Shown in pieces: positions 4,137 through 56,366 of a DNA stretch of 64,000 bases. The stretch lies in the NCBI RefSeq assembly GCF_000317575.1, contig NC_019748.1, positions 1,008,001 through 1,072,000 on the forward strand. Direction: 5' to 3'. The first letter of the stretch is position 1, and every line of letters starts with the position of its first letter. The notes below the pieces were generated by a model. That model saw only the letters and a program-made list of their open reading frames with translations, was not told the origin of the DNA and ran no database searches. The DNA comes from Stanieria cyanosphaera PCC 7437. Lineage in GTDB: Bacteria; Cyanobacteriota; Cyanobacteriia; Cyanobacteriales; Xenococcaceae. The translations under genes were made by a program, and so were the position numbers.

Positions 4137-6317
4137 TCACTGACTCACTCCCTGATTTACTGGACGAATATTATTACTTTCAAATGGTCTAGCATCGCCA
4201 CGCCAGTTAAAACCATTGATACGAAAATTAATTGAACCAATTTCTAAGACAGGATTGTAGCGAAGAGTGATGTTGTGGGTACGGCGACTGTATTCTAAAA
4301 CATAGTCGGTGCTGATTTCCTCATTATCATCAAGATTCAAGGAAGTTTGGACTCCAACTCGAATTGGCCCATATATTTGCTGAGTAAGTCCTAGAGATAA
4401 AGTTTTTTCGTCAACATAACGATCAAATAAAAACGGAGAGCGATCGCTACGAAGTCCTTGAGAATAGGTCAGACTAAATCCTGTATAGTCCAAGTAGGAA
4501 CGGGAAAAATGTCCAAGTTGTCCCTCAATGCCGATGTTAGCTTGTAAAGACTGTTGATCATCTCCGTTGCTATAAAAACTACTGACTCCAGAAATTCCTG
4601 TAAGAAGTTGGAGAAAAGGAACTACAGGAGTAGGAGTGAAACGTAAACCTTGGTTTGGAGTTGGTGCTAAGGGTTTACCTTGCCACAACAGGAAACCTTT
4701 ACTAAGAGATGCTGCGGTTTGATAACGGGTAAGATTAATGCGGTTATTATCTCGATTGGATTCGAGTAAATCTTCTCGATCTGTATCTGCACTAATATTT
4801 TGAATCGATCCTTGGTAAGTAAGATTAATTCCTGTTTTTCCTAAAGGAATATTGGGTGAAGTGATAATTCCACCAAGACTACTGTAAACAGTTTGGAAAC
4901 CAAGAGAACCATTAAAAAGGCGATCGCGGAAATTGTATTGTAGGCTAAAGGTATGAGGATTAGCTAGATTACCTAATTGTTGATCAAAAGCGATTCTACT
5001 TCTTAATCTATCTTCAACATCTTCCAGATCTAAACTGGTAAGACTCAGTCTGGCTTGTAAATTGGTACGGGGAGAAAACCTCTGAGTGAATTGACTTTGT
5101 AGTCCCAAAGAGGAAGGATTGAAAACACCCCCATCATCTTCATCACTAAAATCAAAAGCGGTGGGAAAAATAGCTTTTTGTATGAAATATTGAGGCGTAA
5201 TTTCCCAATTGGTTTTTTCTGTCTCAATTAGCTGAAAACTACGTTCAAGATATAAACCCCCTCTTTCTTCTCCATCAAATCCAAAGCTAACAATTCCTGG
5301 TTGACGAGGACGACGATCTATCACAAATCGATTGGTTAATAAAGGAACAGTAAAACTATCATCAATAACGATACGAGAATTTTGAGTAGTCAAAACACTA
5401 ACTTGAGGCGCAGTTTGGGTAAAATTAGCAGTTTTAGCTCTTAATTCCAACTCTGGAGGCGAAAAAGGATCATTAGTTAAACGAAAATCAGTGGCGGTAA
5501 AATTATTGTTTTCAAACTCCATTCTGGCTGCTTCAAATCGCAGTCGATTAATTTGTCCTCCACTGGTTTGATTGTTTCTATCACCAAGAATTTGATAGTC
5601 TCTGCTACTTCCTACAGAAATACCAATCGATTCGGTTGCAGTTACGTCAGTTAAAGGTTGAGTGATCGTCAAGCGATCGCTTAAGGTAGTCTGAGGAATA
5701 ATTCTACTTTCTGGCAATCTAGCGGATAAATCGCGGTTAAGAGTAGCTTGATCTACTTGCCCTTGGGCATTAATAACTACCCCGCGATCCTGAACTAAAT
5801 AATATTCAAATTTCTCTCCTCGTAGCACTTGTTGTCCTCTTGTCAGCACAACATTTCCTTGAGCTACAGCAATTCGATCTGCTAAATTAACTTGAAGACG
5901 ATCCGCAGTTAGAACGGCTTGAGCGAAATTCATCACCACGTTACCTTCAGCCGTAACTACCTGTTGTTGATTATTATACTCCTGGCGATCGGCAATGACT
6001 TCGATAACATCAACTTGTTCTACAGGAGTGGGAGTATTGGGTTCAGTAGAATTAGAGTTATTTTCAGGAATAGTAAATTCTCTGATTTCTCCGTTGCGTT
6101 CCTGAGTTATTAAATAACTAGCAGGGGAAAACCTGCCTTTATTTTTTACCTGCAACTGAGTTATTAAAGTTCGATTAATATCTTGATTGTTAATTTTCCC
6201 CTGGTAGGTTTTTGGTGCTTTGTGGAGAATGGGTATAGGTTGAGTTTGGTTTTCAACTATTGGCTGTGCAACCGCCAAATAATTCAGGGAGATTAGCAAT
6301 GAAATCATCGGTTTCAA
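4137..6317 (-). CDS. DUF3769 / OstA-like outer-membrane protein (LPS-transport-like)
   Basis: 726 residues. A short hydrophobic N-terminus (MKPMISLLISLNYLAVAQ) resembles a signal peptide. Residues about 100-190 form a LptA/OstA-like repeat region (VIADRQEYNNQQQVVTAEGN, FAQAVLTADRLQVNL, AQGNVVLTRGQQVLRGEKF). The rest is a long series of alternating polar and hydrophobic strands rich in Arg/Asn, ending in DARPFESNN, typical of the C-terminal beta-barrel of cyanobacterial DUF3769 proteins. By analogy with LptD these proteins are thought to act in outer-membrane lipopolysaccharide assembly. Position and function are inferred from family resemblance; the gene stands alone. Confidence 0.8.
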   Translation of the reverse strand: MKPMISLLISLNYLAVAQPIVENQTQPIPILHKAPKTYQGKINNQDINRTLITQLQVKNKGRFSPASYLITQERNGEIREFTIPENNSNSTEPNTPTPVEQVDVIEVIADRQEYNNQQQVVTAEGNVVMNFAQAVLTADRLQVNLADRIAVAQGNVVLTRGQQVLRGEKFEYYLVQDRGVVINAQGQVDQATLNRDLSARLPESRIIPQTTLSDRLTITQPLTDVTATESIGISVGSSRDYQILGDRNNQTSGGQINRLRFEAARMEFENNNFTATDFRLTNDPFSPPELELRAKTANFTQTAPQVSVLTTQNSRIVIDDSFTVPLLTNRFVIDRRPRQPGIVSFGFDGEERGGLYLERSFQLIETEKTNWEITPQYFIQKAIFPTAFDFSDEDDGGVFNPSSLGLQSQFTQRFSPRTNLQARLSLTSLDLEDVEDRLRSRIAFDQQLGNLANPHTFSLQYNFRDRLFNGSLGFQTVYSSLGGIITSPNIPLGKTGINLTYQGSIQNISADTDREDLLESNRDNNRINLTRYQTAASLSKGFLLWQGKPLAPTPNQGLRFTPTPVVPFLQLLTGISGVSSFYSNGDDQQSLQANIGIEGQLGHFSRSYLDYTGFSLTYSQGLRSDRSPFLFDRYVDEKTLSLGLTQQIYGPIRVGVQTSLNLDDNEEISTDYVLEYSRRTHNITLRYNPVLEIGSINFRINGFNWRGDARPFESNNIRPVNQGVSQ

Positions 6318-6628
6318 TAACGCTGGTAGTTAGCAATTTTAATCTTTATTTCCATGAATGCAAGTAAAATTTTAAGTTTTCAACCAATAAGTCTGAATCA
6401 AAAGTAGTGTTTTCCCAAACAATACAAATTTAAACAGAGAAAAAGACACACAATTTTTGTATTCGCGAACAGGAGGTAGAGACAATTCATAAATTGTCCT
6501 TACTACTCTGAGTTAAAAGTAACAAAATTAACTTGATTTAATTTAACAAGCAGTGTCTAATATATAAATTATTTTTTAAATTCTTAAGATACTTATAAAT
6601 TGCTTTTATTTTATCGAAAATATTTACA
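6318..6628. other. Divergent AT-rich intergenic region with one hairpin repeat copy
   Basis: A 311-bp gap between two divergent genes, so both promoters should lie here. Apart from the 28-nt hairpin at 6476-6503 it is featureless AT-rich DNA; no clear -10/-35 pair is evident. Confidence 0.5.
6476..6503. repeat. 28-nt hairpin repeat, copy 1
   Basis: GTAGA followed by the perfect stem GACAATT-CATA-AATTGTC and CTTAC. It has the layout of the other copies at 10881, 29825, 35686, 37645 and 42006: GTA + (G-rich) + AATT + 4-nt loop + complement + TAC. Here the stem base is degenerate. Confidence 0.6.
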
Positions 6629-8254
6629 ATGACTCCAAGTTTACATAAATTAATTGAAAAGCTCAAAACAATTAAAAGTTATCTTAATAGCCAATTAAAG
6701 CATTATCCCGATTATGAACCGTTAATAACAAGAGCAACAGAGATAATTGAGCATTGTAATAATAAAAAAATTAGTATTAAATTAGCTAGTTATTCAATTG
6801 ATTTTTTAGAAAATTTTAACAAATTTACCCTAAAAAGATATAGTTTGGTTGAATATTTAAATTTTGAAGTTGTTAATTTAAACCAAAATATTGAACAAGT
6901 TTTTGCTCGTTGCGATTTACTATGTTTGATTTATGATTCTCAATTACCAATTTCCAGTCTAGAAAAACAATTAATTGAACAAGCAAATTCAAGACAAATT
7001 AAACAATCCTTACTTATACTTGATAACAGTTTAATTGAAGATAATTTAATAAATATAATTAATCTCGATTATTTGAAAAATTGGCTTAATAATAATTATA
7101 AGCAAGCAATTAATCATTTTTTGGTTAGACTAGATGCCAATTGTAATTTACAATCTTCTGAAGAATTAAATCAATTTTATAATTTTATTGATACATTAGT
7201 GCAAAACGAATTTGACAATTATATTGACCATACTTTTCATGGTTTAAAAGTAAATATAGCTGAGTATTTTGAGCAAGAGAAAAAAACTTATTGTCAAAAA
7301 ATTCATTCTCAAAAAGCCAATTTTTGCCAAGGAGAAAATCCTGAAAAATTTAAGCAAAAACTTAATCAAACCATTCAAAAACTCAACAAGGAACAACAGC
7401 AAATATTTAAAATTCTTAAACAAGATGTTAATCAATATAAATTAGAGCTATTGAATCCTTTTATCTATGATAGTTTAATGTATCAAGTTCAACAAGCAAT
7501 TGAAAAATCTGAAATATTAGAATGTCAAGAAAATAACAAAACTTATTTATATCTAATAATTAAAAACCAACAATATTCTCAAAGGCTTCCTACTTATATA
7601 ATTAATCTTTGTCAACAAAATTTAAGTTATTGGTTTGAGCAAGAATGGGAAAAAATTCATTATCTTAAACCTGAAAATAATTTACCACAATTTTGGCAAA
7701 AAACTCAACAAGAATTAGAATTTATCAACTCTAGTAAGATCCAAACAATTAACTTTAATTTGTCAAGTAAACCTGTTTTTGAAATAAACGATTTTATTAC
7801 TATATCAATCTTAGAAGAAACTAGTAAAACTCTGCTGGACTATCATTACACTCAAAGTACTTGGTTCCGACTTGCTGTGGCTATGATTGTTGGTTTGATA
7901 ATTTTTCTAGTTACTAGTAAATTATTTGGTTTTGTAATTGTAATTTTTCAATTGATCAATTTATTTACTGCTCAAAATGCTAAAACAATCCGGATCAAAC
8001 AACAAACCAAAGAATTAAAAAGAATAGTTGAAGGCAAATATCAATTTCTAGTTCGGCATTTATGCGATCGCGCAGGACAAATTTTGATTACAACTTTAGA
8101 TGAAACCAGTCAACAATATCAAATTGAATTAGATGCGATCGCGTCAAAAGCTGACGAACAATTGAATGAAGTAAAACAAAAGATTAACAGTTACCAAGAT
8201 ATCATCAATCAACTCAAACAAGACCAAGCTGAAATTGAAAAATTACTACTTTAA
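6629..8254 (+). CDS. Unknown membrane protein; possible dynamin-like protein lacking the GTP-binding P-loop
   Basis: 541 residues, very rich in Asn, Gln, Lys and Ile, with the most AT-rich codon use in this part of the window. I do not recognise a named family. The architecture recalls bacterial dynamin-like proteins: a helical N-terminus, a stretch RCDLLCLIYDSQLPISSLEK that resembles the part of a dynamin G domain after the DxxG motif, long helical segments, a two-span hydrophobic hairpin (about residues 412-450, FRLAVAMIVGLIIFLV then GFVIVIFQLINLF), and a C-terminal coiled coil (about 455-541). There is no GxxxxGK[ST] loop or NKxD motif, so GTPase activity is not expected. The dynamin link is inference from layout only. 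It converges with the aldolase gene. Confidence 0.55.
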   Translation: MTPSLHKLIEKLKTIKSYLNSQLKHYPDYEPLITRATEIIEHCNNKKISIKLASYSIDFLENFNKFTLKRYSLVEYLNFEVVNLNQNIEQVFARCDLLCLIYDSQLPISSLEKQLIEQANSRQIKQSLLILDNSLIEDNLINIINLDYLKNWLNNNYKQAINHFLVRLDANCNLQSSEELNQFYNFIDTLVQNEFDNYIDHTFHGLKVNIAEYFEQEKKTYCQKIHSQKANFCQGENPEKFKQKLNQTIQKLNKEQQQIFKILKQDVNQYKLELLNPFIYDSLMYQVQQAIEKSEILECQENNKTYLYLIIKNQQYSQRLPTYIINLCQQNLSYWFEQEWEKIHYLKPENNLPQFWQKTQQELEFINSSKIQTINFNLSSKPVFEINDFITISILEETSKTLLDYHYTQSTWFRLAVAMIVGLIIFLVTSKLFGFVIVIFQLINLFTAQNAKTIRIKQQTKELKRIVEGKYQFLVRHLCDRAGQILITTLDETSQQYQIELDAIASKADEQLNEVKQKINSYQDIINQLKQDQAEIEKLLL

Positions 8255-8263
8255 TTAATCAAC

Positions 8264-8295
8264 AAAAAAAATTGGGTAGCTATGACAACTACCCA
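8264..8295 (-). terminator. Terminator of the aldolase gene
   Basis: Read on the minus strand: stem TGGGTAG / CTACCCA (7 bp, 9-nt loop; arms at 8273-8279 and 8289-8295), followed by an uninterrupted run of eight T (8264-8271 as A on the plus strand). A standard Rho-independent terminator. Confidence 0.8.
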
Positions 8296-53634: not shown

Positions 53635-54564
53635 ATGAATTGTTTTGTGATTCTTATGGTTAATCAGGATAACATAAGTTCTGCGAAAAAACAAGCAGAA
53701 AAGCTTACCTTTACTATTCCAGGTAGCGATCGCTTAATTCAATCCGATCAGACTAAGATTGAATGGGCGCAGATTGCTCCAGGCAAAGTAGTAGTAGCAA
53801 CGGTCGACCGTGCTTGGTTGTATCAACCTCATTCTATAGAAGATCGTTTTGCCCAACCGATGGAAGGTGCGGGTAGCATTGCTACAACTAGGAAATTATT
53901 GGATACAGCGATCGCTGCTGCCAAATACGCTATACAGTCTAACGTTAGACCTCCTGCGCTAACTTGTACACGCTGGGTATGGCGATTAGCAGGTGCTTAT
54001 CATTTAACTGCCCCTACTCCCAGACTTTTGAAAGATGCTGCTATTGGTTTTGCTGGCAATGGTCGTAGTCTTTTAAAAAAATGGGCTTTAGAAAAAGCTC
54101 AAGAAGAAAAAGGTCACGACAGACTTGCTTTACTCGACATCCAGTCTTTGGGATACGATGCCGAAGCAGTGGTAAAGGCTCTTGTTCCTCCTGCTGCGGT
54201 AGCTTTGATTGATTACTTTACTCGTAGTGTGCAAGATGACGATCCCATCGATTGTGTAGGGTACACCTATACAATGGAACGCCTATCTTTAGGCATTGGA
54301 AAAGATTACATCCAAAATGTAGAAGCATTACTACCACCAAAGGTTAATGCTACTCGATGTCTGTGCGTACATAGTTCTGTTGGTGCTGATGCAGATCATG
54401 TAGATGAAAATGTATCACTTATATCTCAACTTACTCCCTCGGAGCGGACGCGTATAGCGAGAGCTTGTTACGAAACAGCATTAATGTGTTTTAGTCCACC
54501 ACCTGAAGGTTATATCTCGGATGAGGAACTTGATCAGATCGTGCAACCATTCAAGAAAAGCTAG
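53635..54564 (+). CDS. Heme-oxygenase-like di-iron oxidase (HDO/PqqC-TenA fold) candidate
   Basis: 309 residues from ATG 53635; ATG 53656 (MVNQDNISSAKK) is an alternative and a TTG at 53578 lies in a repeat. The first 90 residues hold a small domain (LTFTIPGSDRLIQS, PGKVVVATVDRAWLYQ). The helical bundle follows with candidate metal ligands spaced as in HDO enzymes: Glu/His in LEKAQEEKGHDRLALLD, Glu in GYTYTMERLSLGIG, and His, Asp, His in VHSSVGADADHVDENV. HDO enzymes use O2 and two irons to oxidise amino or fatty acids (UndA, SznF, BesC). The substrate is unknown. It is followed by a 48-residue peptide gene and a terminator. The family call is by ligand pattern and is moderately sure. Confidence 0.7.
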   Translation: MNCFVILMVNQDNISSAKKQAEKLTFTIPGSDRLIQSDQTKIEWAQIAPGKVVVATVDRAWLYQPHSIEDRFAQPMEGAGSIATTRKLLDTAIAAAKYAIQSNVRPPALTCTRWVWRLAGAYHLTAPTPRLLKDAAIGFAGNGRSLLKKWALEKAQEEKGHDRLALLDIQSLGYDAEAVVKALVPPAAVALIDYFTRSVQDDDPIDCVGYTYTMERLSLGIGKDYIQNVEALLPPKVNATRCLCVHSSVGADADHVDENVSLISQLTPSERTRIARACYETALMCFSPPPEGYISDEELDQIVQPFKKS

Positions 54565-54661
54565 TCTTTACCTGCTCTTATCAAAATTTGAAAACTAAGA
54601 ACAAACTATTTTTAGTACTAATTCACTGATTATCTCAAACACAAACTAAGGAGAATTAATT

Positions 54662-54808
54662 ATGAACACTGCAATAGCTACTCAAATCAAACCAATTGAA
54701 AATAGCTTAGAAGTTTTGAATCAGTTTGGAATTGAGCTTGATTTAGATGGTATTTTAATCACAGAATTTGAACAAGGATTAGCAAACGACCTGGATAATC
54801 CTTTCTAA
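54662..54808 (+). CDS. 48-residue acidic peptide, possible RiPP-type precursor or enzyme substrate
   Basis: ATG follows AAGGAGAATTAATT, a strong ribosome site. Translation begins MNTAIATQIKPIENSLEVLN and continues QFGIELDLDGILITEFEQGL, ending ANDLDNPF. Net acidic, helical in the middle, no Cys and no signal peptide or membrane segment. It is 97 bp after the HDO gene, same strand, and before a strong terminator, so HDO and peptide form a two-gene operon. Small peptides next to heme-oxygenase-fold enzymes occur in PQQ synthesis (PqqA next to PqqC), which makes a precursor role conceivable. No homologue is recognised; function is inference. Confidence 0.65.
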   Translation: MNTAIATQIKPIENSLEVLNQFGIELDLDGILITEFEQGLANDLDNPF

Positions 54809-54840
54809 TCAATTTCGATTATTTCGTTGGTTAAATAAGT

Positions 54841-54875
54841 AGCTAGGTTTGATCAATATTTTGAGTTGCCTAGCT
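54841..54875 (+). promoter_or_regulatory. Stem-loop 3' of the peptide gene
   Basis: AGCTAGG (54841-54847) pairs perfectly with CCTAGCT (54869-54875), 21-base loop. It lies 32 bp after the peptide stop and before the main terminator; could stabilise the 3' end or regulate readthrough. Confidence 0.45.
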
Positions 54876-54884
54876 TCTAAGTGT

Positions 54885-54916
54885 AATTTGGACTTCACCA
54901 AGCCAAATTTTTTTTT
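54885..54916 (+). terminator. Terminator of the HDO-peptide operon
   Basis: AATTTGG (54885-54891) and CCAAATT (54903-54909) form a perfect 7-bp stem running into nine T (54908-54916). Strong Rho-independent terminator. Confidence 0.85.
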
Positions 54917-55070: not shown

Positions 55071-56366
55071 TTGTTTAAAAATAGTGATTTTAAAATAAAA
55101 AAAACACTAAAATTTCTTAGCTACTTCTTGATTCTTGGTTGCTCAGTTCTTGTTTTAAGTTTAATTATTTTACCTGCTTTAACACAACAAGCAACCACAG
55201 TTACAGTTTTAATTCAGGCTTTAGAAGCAGCACAATGGCAACCTTTAGTTACAGAATTTAATCAAACTCATCCTCAAATTAAACTACAAATTATTGAAGG
55301 TCCAAATGCTACTAATCAGGTAGAAGATTTATATACATCTTCGTTTTTATTAGGACAATCTCCTTATGATTTAGTTTATATGGATATTGTTTGGGTACCC
55401 AAATTTGCTGCTGCTGGTTGGTTATTACCTTTATCAGACCGACTTACTACTACAGAATTAAAAGAATTTTTAGCAGGCGATGTCAACGGTGGTACGTTTC
55501 AAGGGCAATTATATCGAATGCCCTTTCGTTCCGATGCAGGAATGCTTTATTACCGCCAAGACTTATTGAGTGCCAATAACTATCAACCACCCAGAACCTT
55601 TGAAGAATTAATGGCAATTTCCCAAGATTTACAAGAAAAAGGAGTAAGTCAATGGGGTTATTTGTGGCAAGGAAAACAATACGAGGGTTTATCCGCCATG
55701 TTTGTCGAAATTTTACAAGGTTTTGGCGGTTTTTGGATTGAACCAGATACTCTTGAAGTAGGATTAGACCAACCAGAAGCAATTCGAGGAGTAGAATTTT
55801 TACGTAGTACTGTAGCGAAAAATATTTCTCCTGCGGGAGTGACTACCTACGCAGAAGAGGAAACTCGTCGTTTATTCCAAGAAGGAAAAGCAATCTTTTT
55901 ACGTAACTGGCCTTATGTGGTTGGTTTAGCTTCAGCAGAAGATTCTCCCATTCAAGGTAAATTTGCTATTAAACCAATGGTTCATGCACCAGGTTATCCT
56001 AGTGGTGCTTGTCAAGGAGGATGGGGACTAGGTATTGCTGCAAATACTCAACATCCAGATGCAGCGTTGGAAGTAATTAAGTTTTTTGCTAGTGAGGATT
56101 CTCAACGTGAATTTGTTTTAGCTACGGGTTATGTTCCTAGTCGTAGATCTTTATTTAATGACCCTAAAATTGTTGCTAAATATCCCCATTATCCTGAATT
56201 GTTAAAAGTGGTGGAAAGTTCTGCTCTGCGTCCTCCTATTGCTCAATACGCTCAAGCTTCTGATATTTTACAACGCTATCTCAGTGCAGCTTTAACTAAT
56301 AAAATGAATCCTACTGAAGCTATGCAGGCAGCAGCTAAAGAAACACGAAGATTATTAATTAACTAG
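55071..56366 (+). CDS. ABC transporter extracellular solute-binding protein (sugar/polyol type)
   Basis: 431 residues, TTG start as drawn; the N-terminus (residues about 12-36, LKFLSYFLILGCSVLVLSLI) is a membrane segment or uncleaved signal with a Cys. The mature part has family motifs: VTVLIQALEAAQWQPLVTEF, SPYDLVYMDIVWVPKFAAAG, RMPFRSDAGMLYYRQDLL, ARRLFQEGKAIFLRNWPYVV-like and CQGGWGLGIAANTQHPDAAL. This resembles polyol/glucosylglycerol binding proteins of the ggtB kind. No permease gene adjacent. No good ribosome site at the TTG; the start is uncertain. Confidence 0.83.
   Translation: MFKNSDFKIKKTLKFLSYFLILGCSVLVLSLIILPALTQQATTVTVLIQALEAAQWQPLVTEFNQTHPQIKLQIIEGPNATNQVEDLYTSSFLLGQSPYDLVYMDIVWVPKFAAAGWLLPLSDRLTTTELKEFLAGDVNGGTFQGQLYRMPFRSDAGMLYYRQDLLSANNYQPPRTFEELMAISQDLQEKGVSQWGYLWQGKQYEGLSAMFVEILQGFGGFWIEPDTLEVGLDQPEAIRGVEFLRSTVAKNISPAGVTTYAEEETRRLFQEGKAIFLRNWPYVVGLASAEDSPIQGKFAIKPMVHAPGYPSGACQGGWGLGIAANTQHPDAALEVIKFFASEDSQREFVLATGYVPSRRSLFNDPKIVAKYPHYPELLKVVESSALRPPIAQYAQASDILQRYLSAALTNKMNPTEAMQAAAKETRRLLIN

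Follow-up and report, generated by a model that had tools for sequence, protein, structure and literature searches.

In a 64,000-nucleotide stretch of Stanieria cyanosphaera PCC 7437 (contig NC_019748.1, positions 1,008,001 to 1,072,000; hereafter the window, with all features given on its + strand), a gene for a predicted heme-oxygenase-like di-metal oxidase (HDO; 309 amino acids (aa), 53635..54564) is followed 97 nt 3' by a gene for a 48-aa peptide (54662..54808). Across relatives, this peptide is a conserved partner of the oxidase and not an incidental open reading frame (ORF). We lean towards the view that the peptide is the substrate of the HDO, which likely oxidises its C-terminal residue with the terminal carboxylate bound to an iron of the di-iron site. 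A sequence-only reading of the window had proposed the peptide as the "substrate or carrier" of the oxidase; the evidence points to a substrate, and specifically to its C-terminal end, although we only infer this role.

A small peptide gene accompanies the oxidase across genomes

Database searches returned 661 homologues of the HDO (E ≤ 1e-10) and 219 of the peptide (E ≤ 0.01), with 120 of each listed. We evaluated the pairing of the two genes over 99 HDO loci (86, plus 13 from closer relatives of the window) through a six-frame search with two peptide models, the larger built from database peptides, some of which come from the 99 loci themselves, and the second from seven loci chosen by visual inspection; loci sharing an assembly or genus are not independent. 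A homologous peptide was detected directly 3' of the HDO on the same strand in 89 of the 99 loci (E ≤ 1e-3), and the peptide of L028 still matched at 9e-11 despite being truncated at a contig end. Weaker matches occupied the same place in eight loci (L095-L099, L101, L102, and L178; E 0.003 to 0.25). The stretch of L100 stops within the HDO gene, and for L029 the six-frame search gave no peptide match besides a possible fusion; these two and the eight loci above make up the 10 of 99 scored as lacking a peptide. The 99 distinct peptide ORFs, including that of the window, were all located on the HDO strand, downstream, and at ≤1.5 kb, with none elsewhere on those stretches. The second model recovered peptides outside its training set (e.g., L103, L179, and L180) and also four from other classes (L077, L094, L109, and L131), which is why we consider the peptide classes to be related.

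As a genome-wide control, 208 genomes of the Fischerella/Nostoc family were searched with a peptide alignment that contains no member of a distinct 98-aa class. Matches were obtained in 53 of these genomes, below the HDO search (68 of 217 genomes of this family), and 60 of the 62 peptide matches lay directly downstream of an HDO match, with a median gap of 122 nt between the two matches; in two of the 60 cases (G399 and G418), the HDO match was a fragment. The other two peptide matches were found away from an HDO, one on contig C384 of G479 and one, of 24 residues, in G472. The HDO is common in some groups, namely in this family and in that of G394 (15 of 26 genomes), G394 being related to the window, but an even sampling of the class gave it in just 4 of 388 genomes, the window's own included, with a single-sequence query. 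When used as a single query on these 388 genomes, the window peptide returned only its own match, and the only other clear peptide in this set (L009/L027) is a divergent one; this rarity and divergence made alignments and other groups of genomes necessary. Searches of the S. cyanosphaera genome found a single oxidase gene and a single peptide gene of this kind. The association that the sequence-only reading had anticipated between the peptide and HDO homologues therefore holds, both among loci and genome-wide, and the arrangement known from ribosomally synthesised and post-translationally modified peptides (RiPPs), i.e., a precursor gene conserved beside its enzyme, is found here with the HDO as the presumed modifying enzyme.

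The peptide gene also carries the marks of a translated gene. Its ribosome-binding site (54648..54661) consists of AAGGAG at 54648-54653 and an 8-nt spacer ahead of the ATG, as had been noted. In the SDIPMA[DG] group of 20 loci, the last 30 peptide codons are under purifying selection, with a dN/dS (non-synonymous over synonymous substitution rate) of 0.16 compared to 0.63 for the preceding 30 codons (ungapped, approximate). For a gene of just 48 codons, one might suspect an ORF arising by chance or an untranslated RNA element; given this dN/dS, the 219 protein-level homologues, the ribosome-binding site, and the lack of any Rfam match, we regard this explanation as extremely improbable.

A natural fusion (L011/P0241) was considered as proof that the peptide tail enters the active site and was rejected, since the tail of its model has a predicted local distance difference test (pLDDT) score <50 and its likeness to the peptide is modest; a third protein search returned that protein alone, and it is not used as support. 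An alignment that combined peptides with HDO sequences misaligned the peptides. In L172 (about 5986-8267), a span of ~2.3 kb holds two HDO-peptide units that differ from each other and face tail to tail on opposite strands; a WD40 gene lies beyond them.

Fold and candidate metal ligands of the oxidase

The assignment of the 53635..54564 product as an HDO-type oxidase is a prediction drawn from the ORF, a PF14518 match, a predicted model, and structure matches. An alternative start at 53656 would yield a 302-aa protein, the length seen in database cluster P0001. The suggested search against HDO families did return PF14518 (E 1.2e-5), although at 25.6 bits this match is under the 28.9 cut-off. 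The same family is annotated in the database for most of the 120 listed relatives of the window oxidase, and no Pfam match was obtained at E 0.1 for the Nostoc HDO protein of L007. The predicted model (pLDDT 90.2) adopts the heme-oxygenase-like helical fold, which is common also to heme oxygenases and TenA, and HDO structures are among its matches.

Candidate metal ligands were assigned by alignment to 3dde (Sden_3740 from Shewanella, function unknown), and are numbered here from the start at 53635. They include E158 and H161 in an E-x2-H motif (54106..54117; E143/H146 in a 294-aa frame), retained in 209 and 207 of 209 sequences, respectively; E215 (54277..54279; E200 in the same frame), retained in all 209; and H246, D252, and H255 in an H-x5-[DE]-x2-H motif (54370..54399), retained in 207, 208 (as D or E), and 207 of 209. 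The complete set of six sequence-based candidates, three His and three carboxylates, is retained in 206 of 209 sequences. In 3dde, the motif corresponding to the last of these is H-x3-D-x2-H, two residues shorter. The His-x5-Asp-x-Asp-His pattern initially reported is present, and its first Asp corresponds to the Asp/Glu position above, but its second Asp is not conserved. With the predicted fold and ligands in place, and a peptide adjoining nearly every homologue examined, the HDO assignment and the enzyme-peptide pairing of the sequence-only reading withstand the refuting conditions set in that reading.

Tandem HDO pairs were observed in L003 (318-1226) and L025, with ligand residues lost from the upstream copy (strings EYEYNH and EREDDK, compared to the usual EHEH[DE]H); these upstream copies are possibly pseudo-enzyme partners.

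Peptide tails and a proposed C-terminal oxidation

Most of the collected peptides contain an acidic/hydrophobic block similar to IELDLDGILITEFEQG of the window peptide, followed by about 8-12 residues; in the 98-aa class, an EEIDLDKEW-like stretch stands in its place (by eye). In the window peptide, alignments place this conserved segment at 54734..54784, where it may serve for docking, and the tail that ends in Phe48 at 54785..54805, which may be the reactive end. Looked at for a leader and a core, the peptides have a conserved segment and a short variable tail, but their extreme N-terminus is the least conserved part. Peptide lengths range from about 41 to 149 aa with very different N-termini, and tail classes include ..ANDLDNPF (window), ..PSDTEFGAM, ..PSDIPMADF, ..LAYAPIGI, ..FFNIPSSF, and ..LISKCCL, the latter with a long signal-like N-terminus. 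Across these classes, the last residue is F, L, I, M, Y, V, or W in 97% of 189 distinct tails (one tail-count row, L094, is cut by a contig end). For comparison, these seven residues account for 11% and 6% of the two preceding positions, for 40% and 50% of the two before those, and for 30% of residues across the HDO proteins. Besides the acidic segment, this hydrophobic last residue is the most constant feature of the peptides.

We propose that the peptide would dock on the HDO by its acidic segment, that its free C-terminal carboxylate would ligate one iron of the di-iron site, and that its last, hydrophobic residue would be oxidised by O2 through desaturation, hydroxylation, or oxidative decarboxylation, of which the first two are favoured. 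Metal binding, entry of the peptide into the active site, and the C-terminal residue as the one changed are all presumed steps. The proposal is based on solved HDO structures in which the substrate itself is an iron ligand: according to PMC13108848, this is the case at Fe1 in substrate-bound AetD, UndA, HrmI, PolF, and MboA, and in MboA it is the C-terminal carboxylate of a tripeptide that ligates Fe1, with the C-terminal residue being oxidised (PMC13185094). A hydrophobic last residue and a free carboxylate, held at a near-fixed distance within each class, would fit the needs of such an active site.

Some points qualify this proposal. In HrmI and CADD, O2 can be activated even when no substrate serves as a ligand (PMC13108848), and substrate ligation is therefore common but not obligatory. 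The strict adjacency and co-divergence of peptide and oxidase, together with a conserved part that is the C-terminal block, could also be expected if the peptide were an accessory or regulatory subunit of an oxidase acting on a small molecule, with the conserved segment binding the enzyme and the C-terminus filling its pocket or gating its site; and the modification of the peptide is something we only infer. However, a subunit would not usually be encoded by two or three genes per locus, as in 6 loci (in L025, beside two HDO copies), nor differ so much in N-terminus and length, with some signal-like starts; further genes of a peptide-tailoring type also follow in L111. Overall, we consider a subunit role to be unlikely.

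We also considered the peptide as a scaffold or sacrificial donor from which the HDO would excise a part to form a small cofactor or metabolite, along the lines of the PqqA/PqqC and CADD analogies drawn in the sequence-only reading. CADD/PabS and PqqC have the same fold as the window HDO; CADD consumes its own residues, excising a Tyr from itself, PqqC acts on an excised PqqA product, PQQ being cut from PqqA, and a PqqA-like peptide has a crosslinked Glu and Tyr. Yet the window peptide is devoid of Tyr, the CADD family TIGR04305 scored 19.7 bits where 200 are required, and no reactive residue common to all classes was seen besides the hydrophobic last one, while a fixed product would need one. 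We thus rejected both analogies as best fits, and rate the donor explanation as improbable. MboA and VarO are better analogues of the C-terminal oxidation proposed here.

To our knowledge, HDO action on peptides has very few examples, namely these two. MboA, the mangotoxin acetylenase, has the same fold as the window HDO (the sequence match, at E 0.48, is not significant) and, as proposed for the latter, acts on the C-terminal residue of a peptide (PMC13185094). Unlike the candidate substrate of the window, that of MboA is a ligase-made tripeptide and not gene-encoded, and MboA relies on a dedicated reductase, MboB. VarO is the HDO of the thiovarsolin RiPP pathway, where it is required for a dehydrogenation, and differs by its YcaO-TfuA partners and repeat-bearing precursor; whether VarO acts on the precursor itself is left unsettled in that report (PMC6511847). 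No thiovarsolin-type APR/GPR repeats were seen in the collected peptides (by eye).

The sequence-only reading had described the peptide as lacking both Cys and a signal. This is correct for the window peptide but not for all relatives: by eye, some have hydrophobic, signal-like N-termini and some have ..CCL or ..CCPI ends. One class of 139-149 aa has a signal-like N-terminus and, at the end, two Cys followed by one or two residues (..CCL, ..CCPI), and is found at L067, L068, L070, L071, L075, L083, L084, L101, L102, and L178.

A neighbouring NB-ARC/WD40-type gene and possible roles of the product

A downstream gene could be read in 80 of 86 loci. In 60 of these 80 (judged by WD40 pattern) or 61 (judged by sequence cluster), a convergent WD40-type gene stands next to the pair, while the genes upstream of the HDO vary. 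The corresponding cluster has 83 members, of which 80 are downstream and convergent, one is downstream on the HDO strand, and two are upstream pieces (541 aa in L028 and 90 aa in L079). An NB-ARC domain was identified (E 5e-12) in the N-terminal part of the one WD40-type protein examined by Pfam. In the 13 further loci from relatives of the window, a WD40-pattern gene is next in five and not in six; that of L173 was recognised by its N-terminus only, and that of L172 is the second gene. The window locus has no NB-ARC/WD40-type gene next to the pair.

This neighbourhood is reminiscent of a system described by Kaur et al., in which FxSxx-COOH processed peptides are coupled to AP-ATPases and suggested to act as a toxin or signal (PMC7159879). 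In both, a small precursor that diverges fast but has a more conserved C-terminal peptide is accompanied by a modification enzyme and a linked AP-ATPase gene; the enzymes there are a radical-SAM enzyme and a metallopeptidase instead of an HDO, and the AP-ATPase carries tetratricopeptide repeats where WD40 repeats are found here (PMC7159879). The FxSxx motif itself is absent from the window tail (..ANDLDNPF) and from the collected peptides (by eye).

It is possible, though we do not expect it, that HDO, peptide, and convergent NB-ARC/WD40-type STAND protein together form a conflict module (for defence or self/non-self recognition), with the peptide as toxin or alarm and the STAND protein as sensor or executor. 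The frequent convergent neighbour, the NB-ARC domain, and the FxSxx-COOH parallel are all consistent with such a module, but the STAND-type genes are multi-copy (3 to 22 matches per genome in 8 genomes) and do not behave as dedicated partners, they are absent beside the window copy and several relatives, and the HDO has no match in the PADLOC defence library. Defence-library matches of three WD40-type proteins appear to reflect repeats or weak P-loop similarity, and carry no weight.

A conflict module is compatible with C-terminal oxidation and does not exclude it. If the C-terminal oxidation is correct, the modified peptide would probably be a signal or effector linked to the neighbouring STAND sensor in most of the Nostocales loci examined. 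A bolder version, which we doubt rather more than the conflict module, is a new one-enzyme class of ribosomal peptides: a stand-alone di-iron HDO would rewrite the C-terminal residue of the peptide encoded beside it, and the modified form would, in multicellular cyanobacteria, be bound as ligand by the adjacent, NLR-like NB-ARC/WD40 receptor and so serve as a peptide signal of alarm or kinship that depends on O2.

HDOs acting on peptides and peptides linked to AP-ATPases each have precedent. We found no description of the HDO-peptide pairing among the matches listed for open-access titles and starts of abstracts, subscription papers being mostly outside this scope. If confirmed, a minimal pair of enzyme and peptide would add a new source of peptides modified at their C-terminus and provide a simple system in which to study how an HDO selects its reaction, while the NB-ARC/WD40 linkage would offer a testable handle on what these multi-copy cyanobacterial proteins sense.

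Flanking signals and other neighbouring genes

Downstream of the window peptide, the reported stem-loop (54835..54882) is supported by a significant fold (-16.7 kcal/mol, z -4.05, 0 of 200 shuffles). The reported "strong terminator" (54886..54916) is only partly so: an AT-rich stem with an 11-nt loop and a T run (ATTTGG-(11 nt)-CCAAAT-T run) can be seen by eye, but the fold is weak (z -1.61) and the terminator scanner, whose loop limit of 8 is below the 11 nt of this loop, returned nothing. Promoter-like sites were at chance level (7 found vs 6.8 expected). A same-strand gene further downstream, at 55071-56366, reads by eye like an ABC sugar-binding protein.

Elsewhere, in L111 (1448-5718, - strand), the genes after the HDO-peptide pair encode an Asp/Asn hydroxylase, a member of the Trp-halogenase family, and a pro-kumamolisin (S53-type) peptidase, an arrangement that resembles an enlarged cluster for a peptide natural product. 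A PhyH gene follows in L066 and a class III aminotransferase in L103. Upstream, an AraC-type regulator was detected in 16 of 86 loci and a 188-aa protein lacking any Pfam match in 18 of 86, and these low frequencies led us to leave both outside the core. Regions with these genes (L007 2900-4410, L014 4008-5414, and L015 4251-5662) are followed by 1.5-2.6 kb with few annotated genes ahead of the HDO. Finally, the HDO-peptide module was also found on Nostoc plasmids (L014/L127 and L015/L068), one of which (pNe_3) is typed as conjugative.
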